This document shows positions 8,011-32,365 of a DNA stretch of 42,386 bases, one piece after another. Position 1 is the stretch's first letter. Each line of letters opens with the position of its first letter. A program made the translations under genes and the position numbers. Origin of the DNA: Eubacteriales bacterium (lineage in GTDB: Bacteria > Bacillota > Clostridia > Lachnospirales > Lachnospiraceae). The stretch is taken from positions 1 to 42,386 of the forward strand of contig JAUNAK010000013.1 of assembly GCA_030527665.1 (NCBI GenBank). The letters run 5' to 3'. Below the pieces are notes generated by a model. It was not told the origin of the DNA, ran no database searches, and was given only the letters and a program-made list of their open reading frames with translations.

Positions 8011-9054
8011 TCAATCATCGATCTGATCCAGTACGCGCAGATCAGATTCAAACAACAGTTTAATGTTGTTGATACCGTACTTCAGCATTGCAATTCTCTC
8101 CAGACCGAGACCGAAAGCAAAACCGCTGTACTTCTCAGAATCGATTCCGCAGTTCTCCAGAACCTTCTTGTTTACAACACCTGCACCAAGTACTTCTATC
8201 CAGCCGGTACCCTTGCAAAGCTTGCAGCCCTTGCCTCCGCACTGGAAACAGGATACGTCTACCTCAACCGACGGCTCGGTGAACGGGAAATAGGACGGAC
8301 GCAGACGAGTGGTTGTCTGCTCTCCGAAGATCTGCTGTACAAACATATTCAGGGAACCCTGCAGGTCACAGAGGTTGATTCCTTCATCAACAACCAGACC
8401 TTCCATCTGGCTGAACATCGGAGAATGAGTAGCATCATCATCGGAACGGAATACCTTACCCGGAGAAACGACCTTGATCGGCGGCTTCTTGCTCTGCATA
8501 ACATGGATCTGACCGGCAGATGTCTGGGTACGCAGCAGGAATTCCGGAGACAGATAGAAGGTATCCTGCATATCACGTGCCGGATGATCCTGCGGGGTGT
8601 TCAGTGCGGTGAAGTTGTAGAAATCGGTCTCGATCTCGGTTCCTTCATATACCTCAAAGCCCATGGATGCAAAGATCTCCGTCAGCTGATTGCGAACGGT
8701 TGTGATCGGATGAAGATTGCCGTACTTCGGCTGTACAGCCGGCATGGTAATATCGATCTTCTCGCTTTCATATCTGCGTTTCAGCTCTTCTGCCTTCAGT
8801 TTGGTATCCAGCTCTTCGAAGAAGTTTACGGCCCATTCCTTGGCAGCATTTACATTCTTACCGAACTCAGCTTTGCTCTCGTTCGGAATGTTTCTCATCT
8901 CCTTCATCAACTGGCTCAGCTTACCTTTCTTGGAATCCAGGAATCCTTTTTTGAATTCGTACACGCCTCTGGAACTTTCCAGTTCACCGGCATGATCGAG
9001 GATCTCCTGCTTGATCGCAGCGATTGCTTCATTCAATTCTCTTAAATCCTGCAT
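8011..9054 (-). CDS. pheS: Phenylalanine-tRNA ligase alpha subunit
   Basis: 347 residues, normal PheS length. The N-terminal coiled coil (about 1-95) starts [19 protein letters not shown]. The class II core carries [20 protein letters not shown] (motif 1 region), [11 protein letters not shown] and [12 protein letters not shown] (motif 2), and [18 protein letters not shown] (motif 3 with the conserved Arg). It catalyses ATP-dependent activation of Phe and transfer to tRNA-Phe. ATG 9054 follows AAAGGAGAGAATACA, a good ribosome binding site. Expression should rise when uncharged tRNA-Phe binds the T-box leader upstream. About 240 bp of unusual repeated and hairpin-rich sequence separate the T-box terminator from this start codon. 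Confidence 0.97.
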
Positions 9055-9092
9055 TGTATTCTCTCCTTTTTCATATTTGAAAAATCTTTTTT

Positions 9093-9271
9093 ATAGGACT
9101 TTTTTTGTAGGCCTTTTTGCATGAAAAGCGATTGCTCCATTATGTCTGCACCGCAGATTTTCATAACAAATAACATAGAATGTGCCCTAGCACATTCTTG
9201 CGCCGAGCGCGGTCGCATTGCGACATTCTCCTTTCGCACGAGTGTGCATCTAATAGGACTTTTTTTGTAGG
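9093..9271. repeat. 19-bp direct repeats flanking a cluster of small hairpins in the pheS leader
   Basis: ATAGGACTTTTTTTGTAGG occurs identically at 9093-9111 and 9253-9271, exactly 160 bp apart. Between them are five short perfect hairpins: CTGC/GCAG (9146-9156), GAATGTGC/GCACATTC (9178-9197), GCGC/GCGC (9200-9210), GTCGC/GCGAC (9212-9224) and GCAC/GTGC (9236-9247). No protein is convincing here. The segment looks like a small inserted or duplicated element placed after the T-box terminator. Its repeats copy the U-tract side of that terminator. Confidence 0.75.
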
Positions 9272-9297
9272 AACCCATGTTCCTACAAAAAAAGTCC
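9256..9297. repeat. 19-bp inverted repeat overlapping the T-box terminator U-tract
   Basis: GGACTTTTTTTGTAGGAAC (9256-9274), loop CCAT, then the exact reverse complement (9279-9297). The right arm includes the run of seven A (9287-9293) that is the U-tract of the T-box terminator on the minus strand. In RNA the U-tract could therefore pair with a downstream A-tract, which may alter how the terminator works. Confidence 0.85.
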
Positions 9298-9548
9298 CAT
9301 ATCAGCCTAAACTGATATGGGACGAGTAATCATAGTCATAACCCGCGGTACCACCCACGTTCGAAAAAAGCCGCGCTTCTTCCGCTCTTCTATATGCCTT
9401 AATGCGGCATGAACATCCGCTTACCGCGCAGAACGCTTTTCACGGAATACTCCCATGCTGAAATTCACCGACCGGACGTTTGTGTTCTCGCACCGAACGA
9501 ACACTCTCTTGGAACCTTTCCGACAGGCTACTTACACATGTTCACAGT
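9287..9548 (-). promoter_or_regulatory. Phe-specific T-box riboswitch leader upstream of pheST
   Basis: Minus-strand reading. The T-box consensus GGGTGGTACCGCG lies at 9356-9344. A stem I region with the typical AGAGAGTG motif (within 9500-9515) lies upstream. The specifier loop GGTGAATTTCAGC (9469-9457) contains TTC (9462-9460), a Phe codon, which matches the downstream gene. The intrinsic terminator is GTCCCATATCAG with its complement (12-bp stem, 9294-9323) followed by seven T (9293-9287). Uncharged tRNA-Phe is expected to stabilise the antiterminator and allow pheST transcription. The leader begins near 9548 according to the promoter at 9555-9584. Confidence 0.95.
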
Positions 9549-9554
9549 GCAACT

Positions 9555-13683: not shown

Positions 13684-15195
13684 TTACAGGCTGTCTGTAA
13701 AGCGGTCGAAGGCTTTTCTTCCTTCTTCAGTGCATTTGTATACGCCGGCATCTTCCAGCACTTTTACAAATACTTTTCCGATCTCCTCTTCAAGAATCGT
13801 CCGGACATTCTCACTGTTGAGTTCCGGATGATTCTTTTTCACATCTTCTGCCCATGTACGATGGATCGCAAGCTCCGGATAGGTATCCAGCGGCTTCTGC
13901 TCAACCAGACATTCTGCAAGCAGATCCATTTCTTTATTCAGTCGTGCAGGCAGAACAGCCAGACCCATGACCTCGATCAGACCGATATTTTCCTTCTTGA
14001 TATGGTGATACTCCGCATGCGGATGATACAGTCCCAGCGGACACTCTTCCGTTGTGATATTGTTCCGAAGTGTCAGATCCAGTTCGAACAGATCGCCGCG
14101 TTTTCTGGCGATCGGTGTGATCGTGTTATGCGGTTCTCCGTCTGTCTCCGCAAAAACATATGCATCCTCGTCGGTATATCCTCTCCATGCTTTCAGAATG
14201 TGCTCTGCCAGATCGATCAGACGATGATAGTCCGGTGCACTGATTCGGATAACCGAAAGCGGCCAGTGAACGATTCCTGCTTTTACATCCTCATAGCCGG
14301 GAACGGTAAATTCCTTTTCCAGCTCTGCCCGTTCCATGGCAAACTCATAATGACCGCCCTGGAAATGATCATGTGTCAGAATCGATCCGCCGACGATCGG
14401 AAGATCCGCGTTGGATCCAAGGAAATAATGCGGGAACTGTTCTACAAAGGAAAACAGCTTCTCAAAAGCAGCTCTGTCGATTTTCATCGGCACATGCTCA
14501 CCGTTGAATACGATGCAGTGCTCGTTGTAATACACATACGGAGAATACTGGAAGCCCCAGTCTCTTCCGGCAACGGTGATCGGAATGATCCGATGATTCT
14601 GTCTGGCCGGATGGTTGACTCTTCCTGCATAACCTTCATTCTCCATACAGAGCTGACATTTGGGATATGCGGTCTGCTTCACCGTTCTTGCAGCAGCGAT
14701 CGCCTTGGGATCCTTCTCCGGCTTGGACAGATTGATCGTAATATCGATTTCACCGTAGGCACTGTCCACCTTCCATCTGCGGTCCTTTACGATACGATCC
14801 CGACGGATATAGTTGGTATTGCAGCTGAAATCATAGAACCAGTCGGTCGCCGCTTCCGGTGACTCGGCATATCTGCACTTGAACTCCGCTGCGATCTCGG
14901 AAGGTTTGCTTACCAGAACGCCCATCAGCTTTGTATCAAACAGATCTCTCTGGGTGATGCCGTCATCCGGAAGCATGCCTTTTTCATATGCTGCCTGCAC
15001 AAGTGTATCCAGAATCTCCGGAAGTGCAGCCGGTTCTTCTTTGATCTTCTGCTCCTCTTCTTCGGTAAGAACAAAGGCATCCTCTCCCATCATCTCCAGA
15101 TAACGATTGATCGTATATCTTCTGTCCATTTCCCGGATCAGTCCGGTCTGTACACCGTATTCGGTCAGTCGTGCAATTGCTTCATAAATATTCAT
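13684..15195 (-). CDS. galT: UDP-glucose-hexose-1-phosphate uridylyltransferase, Firmicutes class II
   Basis: 503 residues from ATG 15195 (MNIYEAIARLTEYGVQTGLI). AAGGAG eight bases upstream decides against an in-frame start ten codons earlier. The length marks the long Firmicutes GalT class rather than the 350-residue enterobacterial one. GGSILTHDHFQGGHYEFAM holds the catalytic His region, and PKCQLCMENEGYAGR and NTITPIARKRGDLFELDLTL are family blocks. The enzyme exchanges galactose 1-phosphate with UDP-glucose in the Leloir pathway. galK lies 187 bp upstream on the same strand. Its leader carries a 74-bp element also found in the galK leader. No galE is in view. Confidence 0.95.
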   Translation of the reverse strand: MNIYEAIARLTEYGVQTGLIREMDRRYTINRYLEMMGEDAFVLTEEEEQKIKEEPAALPEILDTLVQAAYEKGMLPDDGITQRDLFDTKLMGVLVSKPSEIAAEFKCRYAESPEAATDWFYDFSCNTNYIRRDRIVKDRRWKVDSAYGEIDITINLSKPEKDPKAIAAARTVKQTAYPKCQLCMENEGYAGRVNHPARQNHRIIPITVAGRDWGFQYSPYVYYNEHCIVFNGEHVPMKIDRAAFEKLFSFVEQFPHYFLGSNADLPIVGGSILTHDHFQGGHYEFAMERAELEKEFTVPGYEDVKAGIVHWPLSVIRISAPDYHRLIDLAEHILKAWRGYTDEDAYVFAETDGEPHNTITPIARKRGDLFELDLTLRNNITTEECPLGLYHPHAEYHHIKKENIGLIEVMGLAVLPARLNKEMDLLAECLVEQKPLDTYPELAIHRTWAEDVKKNHPELNSENVRTILEEEIGKVFVKVLEDAGVYKCTEEGRKAFDRFTDSL

Positions 15196-15283
15196 AGCCG
15201 TTTCTCCTTGTGTATATCCAGCCATTGTCGGCTTATCTCTGTTTTCTCCTGCGTGCTCTGCTTACTGCTGTTCTTTTTGTATG

Positions 15284-15357
15284 CAAGTCGAGCTCTGCAA
15301 GACCTGGCGCAGGATTCAAGTCAGCTTTCGCTGACATCTACCCATCCGAATCCCTGC
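15284..15357 (-). ncRNA. 74-bp structured repeat, copy 1 (galT leader)
   Basis: Copy 1 matches copy 2 (16707-16780) at 69 of 74 positions in the same orientation. On the minus strand it can fold into an outer stem (GGGATTCGG with TTGAATCCT, using G-U pairs), an internal loop around ATGGGTAGAT, and an inner GTCAGC-GAAA-GCTGAC hairpin with a GNRA loop. It ends 88 nt before the galT start codon. I assign no known RNA family. It could be a dispersed repeat or a cis-acting RNA element. Confidence 0.6.
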
Positions 15358-15382
15358 GGAGCGTTTATCTGCTATTCTGTTT

Positions 15383-16666
15383 TTACAGGACCTTGCAGCC
15401 GCCGATCGGGCGAACCTTCATTACATGACAGGAACCTTCTCCCAGAAGTTTCTCCATTCCTTCCTTGTAAGCTGCAACCGCATCATCCGGAATAAATGCC
15501 TGAATGGTTCCAGCAAAACCGCCTCCATGCACACGATAAGCAGCCTTGTCTCCCAGCAGCTTTTTGGTCATGACCAGAGATACCGCAACACTCATCTCCT
15601 CCGGCTTGTGGCAGGCATATACATTCTGCAGATATTTGTAGGAAGACTGACCGGATTCCATGGCGATAGCCTTGAATGCCTCAAAATCCCCTTTCTGCAG
15701 AGCTGCGACCTCTTCATCCACACGTGCATTCTCATCAAAGAAATGAATGGCACGAAGAACGGCTCTGTCGCCCGCTGCCTTTCGGATCTCCGGAAGTGCC
15801 TGATAGAATGCAGCTTCGTCCACCTCGCGAAGAACCTTCTTGCCGAAATATGCCGCAACCTTGCACATTTCAACCGGAATTGCCGCATAATCATCGGTAA
15901 GATCCGCATGGGATCCCTTGGTATCCACGATGCAGAGAGAATGCTTGAATACACTGAAATCCACATCTACTTTTTTGACCTGCGGTGTCTTCGGATCTGC
16001 AAAATCAATAAAGATCAGACCGCCGACCGAGCAGGCCATCTGATCCATCAGACCGGAGGGCTTGCCGAAATATATATTTTCCGCTTCCTGTCCGATCTGG
16101 GCCAGTGTAACGGCATCCAGTTTTTCTTCGTTGTACAGTCCGGACAGGATATTTCCTACCAGGATCTCAAATGCTGCGGAGGAGGAAAGTCCGGATCCGG
16201 ACAGTACCTGACTGGTAGCATATGCATTAAATCCACCTGCCTGATATCCTCTTTTGCGAAGTCCTGCAGCAATTCCGTGGATCAGGGATCTCGTTGTTCC
16301 GAAGATAGATTCGTCGATCACCGGATCGGCAACCGATGTATCGATACGGTCATAGCCCTCGGATTTGAAATGCACCATCTGATCGTCGGTCGGTGATACG
16401 ACTGCAATAATATCGATGTTGACGGAAGAAGCCAGAACCTTTCCGTGCTGATGATCGGTATGATTTCCGCCGATCTCACTGCGTCCCGGCGCACTATAGA
16501 TCTCTACTTCTGCATTTCCAAAAAGCCCGATATACTCCTGTATAGCTTTTACATAACGTTCCCGCTGCATCTGCAGTACACTTTCGTCGATATAGATCTT
16601 TCTCAACACCTCATCATAAACACCGTTCTGCAGTCCGCTGATGATCTCCTCTGCCTGTCTTCCCAT
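15383..16666 (-). CDS. galK: Galactokinase
   Basis: 427 residues, a little longer than the usual 380-400 because of an N-terminal extension of about 55 residues. It is a GHMP-family kinase that phosphorylates galactose at C1. The galactokinase signature APGRSEIGGNHTDHQHG has a Ser-Glu-Ile variant of the usual Arg-Val-Asn-Leu-Ile stretch. The ATP-binding motif is LSGSGLSSSAAFE, DQMACSVGG gives the catalytic base region, and GGGFAGTIQAF is motif 3. ATG 16666 follows GGGAGG. It is upstream of galT. A 74-bp element and a candidate operator lie in its leader. The substrate call rests on family motifs and the galT neighbour. Confidence 0.95.
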   Translation of the reverse strand: MGRQAEEIISGLQNGVYDEVLRKIYIDESVLQMQRERYVKAIQEYIGLFGNAEVEIYSAPGRSEIGGNHTDHQHGKVLASSVNIDIIAVVSPTDDQMVHFKSEGYDRIDTSVADPVIDESIFGTTRSLIHGIAAGLRKRGYQAGGFNAYATSQVLSGSGLSSSAAFEILVGNILSGLYNEEKLDAVTLAQIGQEAENIYFGKPSGLMDQMACSVGGLIFIDFADPKTPQVKKVDVDFSVFKHSLCIVDTKGSHADLTDDYAAIPVEMCKVAAYFGKKVLREVDEAAFYQALPEIRKAAGDRAVLRAIHFFDENARVDEEVAALQKGDFEAFKAIAMESGQSSYKYLQNVYACHKPEEMSVAVSLVMTKKLLGDKAAYRVHGGGFAGTIQAFIPDDAVAAYKEGMEKLLGEGSCHVMKVRPIGGCKVL

Positions 16667-16706
16667 GGTATCCTCCCGTTTGTACTCTGTATTGTTCTCT
16701 AAAGTT

Positions 16707-16780
16707 CAAGTCGAGCTCTGCGAGACCTGGCGCGGGATTCGGGTCAGCTTTCACTGACATCTACCCATCCGAATCCCTGC
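16707..16780 (-). ncRNA. 74-bp structured repeat, copy 2 (galK leader)
   Basis: It begins CAAGTCGAGCTCTGCGAGAC on the plus strand and differs from copy 1 at five positions, all C/T transitions on the minus strand. There, GGGATTCGG pairs perfectly with CCGAATCCC, and GTCAGT-GAAA-GCTGAC forms the inner hairpin with one U-G pair. It ends 40 nt before the galK start. The changes relative to copy 1 swap G-C for G-U pairs in minus-strand RNA but would give A-C mismatches on the other strand. Confidence 0.6.
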
Positions 16781-16860
16781 ACATTCCTGCCGCAAACAAA
16801 TCTGTTCTCGCACAAAACCGACTTATGCTGCGCATGTCTTAAACTCTACCTCTATGATAG

Positions 16861-16931: not shown

Positions 16932-17036
16932 AAAAAAAATACGAATATCCGACATATTGATATGTCCCCCCTTTACTGGACAAATCAGTAAGAAGGGTAC
17001 ATATCATATGCATATGCCCGGCATATTCGTATTTTT
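16932..17036 (-). terminator. Long imperfect hairpin after the HAD gene, terminator-like
   Basis: AAAAATACGAATAT (16935-16948) pairs with ATATTCGTATTTTT (17023-17036). Further pairing continues inward: GACATAT region with CATATCATATG, CCC with GGG, and CTTTACTG with CAGTAAG around GACAAAT. On the minus strand the structure ends in a run of nine T (16939-16931), so it can terminate the HAD gene transcript. It is unusually long for a terminator. Confidence 0.65.
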
Positions 17037-17042
17037 ATTTGC

Positions 17043-32183: not shown

Positions 32184-32228
32184 GTACACTAAGGTCAGTC
32201 GTGTTAAACACGACTGACCTTAGTGTAC
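32184..32228. repeat. 45-bp palindrome upstream of GH35 and AraC
   Basis: Two 21-bp arms that are exact reverse complements (32184-32204 and 32208-32228) around TAA. The left arm starts GTACACTAAGG. It lies between divergent genes: 135 bp from the GH35 start and 149 bp from the AraC start. Confidence 0.9.
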
Positions 32229-32365
32229 ATTAGAACGCAAAGTTCGGCATCTGAATGCTGCTTCGCAGCTGCCGAACTTGCGGCGCGAATCCTCTTCGAG
32301 ATTCGCGATTACATTTCAGTCGTGTTAAACGCAACTGTCTTGAGTGTACCTATGAATCGCAAAGT
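32196..32365. repeat. Imperfect 48-bp direct repeats flanking two hairpins
   Basis: Copy A 32196-32243 and copy B 32317-32365 both begin CAGTCGTGTTAAAC and end CGCAAAGT, and share AGTGTAC near the middle. Between them are hairpin AAGTTCGGCA/TGCCGAACTT (32240-32279, inner GCTGC/GCAGC) and hairpin CGCGAATC/GATTCGCG (32284-32307). Copy A is the right part of the 45-bp palindrome. The arrangement looks like an inserted repeat element or a complex operator. Confidence 0.7.

Follow-up and report, generated by a model that had tools for sequence, protein, structure and literature searches.

The window, as we call the whole 42,386-nt stretch of DNA analysed here, carries galK and galT on its minus strand, with a piece of repeated DNA in the leader of each (Table 1). 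A search of the window for repeats of at least 40 nt recovered this pair and one 41-nt pair, and no others. The gal-leader pair (15284-15357 and 16707-16780) aligned without gaps over 74 bp in the same orientation, at 93% identity with five differences. Together with the Pfam assignments of the two genes, this bore out an earlier note, made from the letters of the window, which described two 74-bp copies in the same orientation upstream of galT and galK. The copies are real, but the recognisable element is longer in both, and the 74 bp correspond to the 3′ part of a unit of 183 nt.

Table 1. Positions of the element copies, their hairpins and the neighbouring gal genes in the window
Feature	Position	Strand	Evidence
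Third, degenerate class B relative, just behind a T-box terminator	9176..9263	-	R1 27.7 bits, E 0.00065; sequence
galT, neighbour outside the element	13684..15225	-	Pfam PF01087, PF02744 (galactose-1-phosphate uridylyltransferase)
Copy 1, 5′-truncated, element positions 84-183, galK-galT gap	15281..15370	-	nhmmer 88.1 bits; R1 57.0 bits at 15283-15366
Copy 1 hairpin P4 (CAGGTC...GACTTG)	15284..15306	-	sequence; structure counted on relatives
Copy 1 hairpin P3: 9-bp stem with G-U pairs, 10-nt one-sided internal loop ATGGGTAGAT	15311..15354	-	sequence; structure counted on relatives
galK, neighbour outside the element	15383..16666	-	Pfam PF10509, PF00288 (galactokinase)
Copy 2, 5′-truncated, element positions 96-182, galK leader	16705..16791	-	nhmmer 90.2 bits; R1 67.5 bits at 16706-16806
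Copy 2 hairpin P4	16707..16729	-	sequence; structure counted on relatives
Copy 2 hairpin P3, inner hairpin GTCAGT-GAAA-GCTGAC at 16743-16758	16734..16777	-	sequence; structure counted on relatives

Both gal copies lack the element's 5′ domain. The copy in the galT leader is also without a 10-nt segment (GCGCAGGGAT) that is present in most full-length copies and was apparently kept in the galK copy; its 3′ end is GACTTGCAT. The distance from the 3′ end of the element to the ATG is about 40 nt for galK, about 58 nt for the first ATG of galT and 88 nt for the second, likelier one; judging from the letters around it (AAGGAG-ACGGCT-ATG), galT may start at 15195 instead.

The hairpin GTCAGC-GAAA-GCTGAC, which the same note had pointed out, was found at 15320-15335 as the inner hairpin of P3, and its partner in copy 2 carries one change. 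The five differences between the copies also fell as described there: on the minus strand, C/T changes in stems account for four of them, exchanging G-C for G-U, and the fifth is in the loop of the last hairpin. These changes are weak evidence for selection at the RNA level, because four stem differences would all be C/T on one strand with a chance of about 1 in 16 if neither strand mattered.

Two other repeats were seen in the window. The 41-nt direct repeat (32195-32235 and 32316-32356) is 80% identical, each copy having TCAGTCGTGTTAAACACGACTGA or a variant of this hairpin at its start. A long imperfect inverted repeat (ATACGAATATCCGACATAT ... GGCATATTCGTAT) at 16940-17037, between a HAD-like gene and galK, is perhaps a terminator.

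A dispersed repeat with a conserved fold

In the genome to which the window belongs (2.95 Mb in 155 contigs, 94% complete), a search with the galT copy gave 40 places and one with the 183-nt query gave 57 matching pieces. Stretches fetched around these matches were scored with a profile built on 15 full-length copies. At least 52 non-overlapping copies were found, a minimum count from 40 scored candidates in stretches around search matches. They adjoin unrelated genes and show no tie to sugar genes. The full element, of about 183 nt, consists of a 5′ hairpin domain P1 (TTTATCTCAGTCG...CGACTGAGATAAA), a linker CGCTCCGCRRGGATGCGCA, the hairpin P3 with a 10-nt one-sided internal loop, the hairpin P4 and the end CTTGAA(T). 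Full-length copies share this end and a sharp start, TTTATCTCAG. The first 20 nt matched the reverse complement of the last 20 nt at 3 of 20 positions, so that the element has no terminal inverted repeats; its long inverted repeat (P1) is confined to the 5′ half.

Sixteen of the 52 copies reach both ends (one of them internally deleted), 28 are 5′-truncated, 7 are 3′-truncated (one of these really an internal deletion) and 1 is truncated on both sides. The 5′ breaks are concentrated near element positions 75-126, not spread along the whole element. A retro-element (SINE-like) reading was rejected: the early picture had been biased by a query from the 3′ half, a full-length query gave 3′-truncated and internally deleted copies, and the genome has no RT.

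With respect to the genes on either side, every one of the four orientations occurred (upstream/downstream: same/same 20, same/opposite 11, opposite/same 10 and opposite/opposite 9, with 2 of the 52 copies at a contig edge without an upstream gene), counted on crude ORFs, with 20 of the 52 copies overlapping an ORF call of at least 70 aa. Because the copies adjoin unrelated genes in all orientations, a dispersed repeat is likelier than a gal leader RNA. The earlier note had offered both, an undescribed leader RNA or a mobile structured repeat that landed twice, and had held that random positions relative to genes would favour a dispersed repeat. The positions are varied, and the second of its proposals gained support from the number of dispersed copies, from the relationships of the gal copies and from pairing conserved at the level of the family.

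Compared on the 3′ part, the galK copy is nearest to a copy on contig C24 (96%) and the galT copy to one on contig C134 (93%). The gal copies are 91% alike there and grouped together in 0% of 200 bootstrap trees, which had few resolved forks. Since the gal copies are not sisters and the galT copy is without the 10-nt segment, two separate landings would fit best. It is all but certain that the gal pieces represent copies of a structured repeat that is dispersed.

Conservation of the fold was examined in alignments of relatives, as the earlier note had proposed. Alignment A2 held 17 diverse copies aligned with MAFFT on sequence only, and its structure was written after the alignment had been seen. 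It supported P3, its inner hairpin and P4 with 31 pairs: 96.0% of the cells were paired (84.3% in shuffled alignments), changes on both sides occurred in 18 of the 31 pairs (5.6 shuffled), and the covariation was 0.314 (0.093 shuffled, at most 0.053 when slid). The covariance model R1 aligned 119 matches from other genomes. Its 101 distinct rows were 95.2% paired, with 699 doubly changed cells against 195.7 in shuffles and a covariation of 0.560 against 0.146 shuffled and at most 0.070 slid; that all 31 pairs showed a double change is less telling, as shuffles gave 23.0. Alignments A3 and A4, the latter of 99 out of 144 loci from the relatives search and the core-pattern search, were fitted to the R1 model structure. 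Conservation of the linker among loci L105-L223 is by construction, these loci having been found via an exact pattern on the linker. The copies within the genome of the window were 85.5% paired against 81.4% shuffled.

Conserved pairing across the element family is real, and the fold is a property of the element, not of the gal genes. Concerted changes in hairpin arms can also arise through quasi-palindrome correction, without selection. The perfect arms may come from RNA, from single-stranded DNA or from palindrome correction, and the inference that the fold serves mobility has about an even chance of being right.

A strand bias was present among the copies of this genome: in 22 stem pairs, with three rows left out of the count, G-U occurred in 62 cells and A-C in 21, and 15 pairs leaned to G-U and 2 to A-C (p = 0.002). 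C-to-T changes were equally frequent at unpaired (19/296, 6.4%) and paired sites (72/1148, 6.3%). Nor were G-to-A changes, which break pairs, rarer at paired (52/1228, 4.2%) than at unpaired sites (7/281, 2.5%). Between genomes, G-U and A-C were nearly equal (44 and 37 of 2898 cells), against 13 and 0 in eight tRNAs of the same loci, a control that is biased in that ARAGORN favours pairs. Because the C-to-T bias is equal at unpaired sites, the G-U excess is no proof of RNA-level selection and we ruled it out as such, which weakens the earlier suggestion of selection on RNA in the direction of gal transcription. The simplest reading of the bias is a strand-specific mutation bias with near-neutral decay after landing.

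These results bear on a leader RNA of the gal operon, riboswitch-like or protein-bound, that would regulate galK and galT. Two sense-oriented copies in one operon, the conserved fold and the excess of G-U over A-C in this genome would suit such an RNA. It is nevertheless highly improbable, given 52 or more copies beside unrelated genes in all orientations with no conserved position before one class of genes, gal copies that are truncated and not sisters, and a C-to-T bias that is the same at unpaired sites.

Spread, insertion sites and two classes

A DNA search of 61 relatives found the element in 8, the genome of the window included. At least 119 stretches carried the exact core pattern, mostly in records titled as Lachnospiraceae genera; among the matches listed were Butyrivibrio, Lachnospira, Agathobacter, Blautia, Coprococcus, Anaerobutyricum and others. 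With R1, the element was found in 119 of 299 genomes of the bacterial family, sampled at nearly one genome per genus, 85 of the 119 being positive at E 1e-6 or better. At E 1e-5, 4 of 291 genomes of the class were positive, 3 of them in the same family. An identical 72-nt core occurred at 17 different places in 7 assemblies. Phages and plasmids gave no match with one copy as query each, and viral contigs had no exact core match.

A scan of the window and the loci against Rfam gave no family at gathering score over the element, only sub-threshold matches of miRNA-model hairpins over P1. HEARO/OMEGA, tRNA and Rfam identities were rejected, none matching over the element. A literature search returned no description of this repeat family; it covered sources outside the subscription journals, so that one may be in print. 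In one genome of another family of the order (G041), two loci (L076:1501-1566 and L083:1501-1566) combine a related 5′ hairpin domain with a 3′ part of a different kind (CTGTAGCG...GAGGTTTATTCC).

A presence/absence site was found in [Clostridium] aminophilum. Strain KH1P1 has a 314-nt insert of the second class of the element, class B, in the T-tract of a terminator, with T7 before and T6 after it, and the matching site in DSM 10710 has T7 and no insert. The insert at this single site is a class B member, whereas the gal copies are of the other class, and insertion and excision are not distinguishable there. Of eight further sites queried in the two strains, the three that were resolved had a copy or remnant in both. 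At one of these three, both arms of P1 had changed in concert between the strains. Both strains hold many copies of the element family, and one KH1P1 class B copy (L118:230-440) has extra hairpin-like inserts inside P3 and P4. A search for empty sites at the gal locus within the genus of the window met members too distant for comparison (at most 70% over short pieces).

The element is very likely mobile: its many copies share their ends and keep the pairing, several assemblies have near-identical copies in unrelated places, and a class B member is present at one site in one strain and absent there from another. For the gal-type class, we infer movement.

By a simple rule, the 128 distinct copies from the pattern search fell into class A, the gal type (58), class B, which has a short P1 (50), and neither (20). 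P1 of class B was 96.3% paired against 74.3% shuffled, with 29 distinct arm pairs whose arms vary together. Class B copies lie directly after an intrinsic terminator (T-tract) in 34 of 46 testable cases, with 1.1 expected at random. For class A the count was 6 of 47 with 1.0 expected, a lower bound, as the boundary finder took the inner arm in some copies. The test left out 11 of the 58 class A copies, 4 of the 50 class B copies and the 20 unclassed ones.

The third relative in the window (Table 1) is of this kind. The T-box leader at 9315-9554 scored 91.6 bits, just below the gathering score of 93, and the ORF at 8011-9054 on the minus strand, downstream of the relative, is presumably pheS. 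On the minus strand of 9080-9400, the right arm of the relative's P1 (GTTCCTACAAAAAAAGTCC) is the reverse complement of the terminator end with its T-run (GGACTTTTTTTGTAGGAAC), and CCTACAAAAAAAGTCCTAT occurs again about 150 nt further on. A possible origin of P1 through fold-back copying of the terminator's T-run was set aside, the lengths of A-run and T-run being only loosely alike by eye.

We tentatively envisage, as a possibility with the balance somewhat against it, a superfamily of mobile folded elements across the bacterial family. Its shared core (linker, P3 and P4) would be recognised by an enzyme that is neither RT nor Y1 transposase; class B would home to terminator T-tracts, its P1 pairing with the U-run, and class A would land more freely.

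A repeat could also have been co-opted after landing as an element of mRNA stability, processing or termination. Such roles have been proposed for BOX and SPRITE of pneumococci. The stable hairpins in the sense strand of the operon, the greater number of copies sense to both neighbours than the reverse (20 and 9) and the third relative in a T-box leader are consistent with co-option. The orientation bias is weak and comes from crude ORF calls, which 20 of the 52 copies overlap, and the copies of this genome show no visible purifying selection on pairs; we therefore consider co-option unlikely.

Candidate mobilisers and the favoured explanation

RVT_1 had no match in the genome of the window (94% complete), which has one Y1_Tnp gene. 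Among 19 genomes of the family with at least 13 listed R1 matches, RVT_1 was present in 13 and Y1 in 13; two copy-rich genomes, G026 (86% complete) and G276 (99%), had neither. None of 12 Y1 loci had an element beside the gene (best R1 17 bits), and 12 Y1 and 12 RT loci together gave no convincing element (best 18 bits). A search for a linked mobiliser gene, by clustering 788 ORFs from 119 loci, brought up no candidate family next to the copies; those that recurred were common transporters and other genes, or else spurious ORFs lying over the element. In two loci (L011, at about 120-180, and L017, at about 1194-1260), two copies are followed by common sequence ending in GTGAYTTACAGTCATGTGAGGTTCA. 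This shared ending resembles what we take to be the right end of IS605-type tnpB elements.

Two kinds of mobiliser were weighed against these data. A selfish or trans-acting structured RNA, whose transcript would be both an RNP and the moving form, could, through reverse transcription for example, yield copies that are 5′-truncated and share a 3′ end. The 28 of 52 copies that keep the 3′ end without the 5′ part, and the conserved fold with its one-sided internal loop, point this way. Seven copies are cut at the 3′ side, the 5′ breaks cluster near positions 75-126, RVT_1 is absent from this genome and from 6 of the 19 copy-rich ones, and between genomes G-U is no commoner than A-C (44 and 37), against 13 and 0 in the tRNAs of the biased control, which makes this origin doubtful. 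The other candidate, a hairpin element of single-stranded DNA comparable to REP or IS200/IS605 and mobilised by a Y1 (HUH) transposase, would account for strand-specific hairpins with bulges in short non-autonomous repeats, and the one Y1 gene of this genome and the near equality of G-U and A-C between genomes agree with it. Y1 is, however, absent from 6 of the 19 copy-rich genomes, including the one that is 99% complete, and 0 of 12 Y1 loci have an adjoining element; we regard this reading, too, as improbable.

The explanation we favour, and consider probable, is that the gal copies are passengers from a small non-autonomous mobile folded repeat and not a galactose sensor. Each gal leader carries a 5′-truncated copy of the dispersed repeat of about 183 nt, which would multiply within genomes and move between genera. 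A trans-acting enzyme may move the element by recognising a folded single strand, either RNA or single-stranded DNA; active copies would keep the fold because mobility needs it, and landed copies would then decay. In the gal operon the hairpins of these probable passengers may affect mRNA stability or processing, with no galactose sensing, and a galactose-specific role of the copies is unlikely.

With its two classes, the element makes up a large family of structured repeats, patchily distributed and apparently unnamed, that behaves like the small interspersed repeats known from other bacteria. Among comparable repeats are the MITE-like elements treated in PMC2229807. Like a MITE, the element is short, non-coding, multi-copy and dispersed, but it has no terminal inverted repeats. 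The pneumococcal BOX, RUP and SPRITE, as described in PMC3049150, are likewise intergenic, shorter than about 200 bp and non-autonomous, with a predicted RNA fold, and BOX is modular. SPRITE is much like class B, being terminator-like with AAAA/TTTT ends and, as far as that account goes, no known TSD or mobiliser. The pneumococcal repeats belong to another branch of the phylum and differ in sequence, and for BOX and RUP the same account gives terminal inverted repeats as well as known TSDs. Our element further differs from all three in occurring across many genera, in the 10-nt one-sided loop of its P3 and, for class B, in its location in terminator T-tracts of the host.

REP/RAYT systems (PMC3733652) resemble the element as many-copy extragenic palindromes, possibly mobilised in trans, with a strand-specific bulged hairpin. 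REPs are, however, 20-40 bp long with a GTAG or CGTC foot in that source, whereas the element measures 183 nt, lacks a conserved tag and is not tightly linked to Y1. GTAG is present in the internal loop of the copies in the genome of the window; relatives have GGAAGAT and others there. Clostridiales-1 RNA (RF01699), a structured RNA of the same bacteria, has a separate position and a different structure and gave no match to the element; in one genome (G010) it lies near two copies (L075:592-755 and L091:1963-2138, 128 and 101 bits).

In about 40% of the sampled genera of a major gut family, this covarying repeat introduces stable hairpins into numerous operons, where it is readily taken for a regulatory leader RNA, as in the gal operon. 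Like class B, class C (IIC) group II introns have intrinsic transcriptional terminators as insertion sites (PMC4424553). The element differs from them in having no intron parts or RT and no Rfam group II match, and several copy-rich genomes are without RT. If the class B pattern holds, it would be a further case, beside IIC introns, of mobile DNA landing at terminators.
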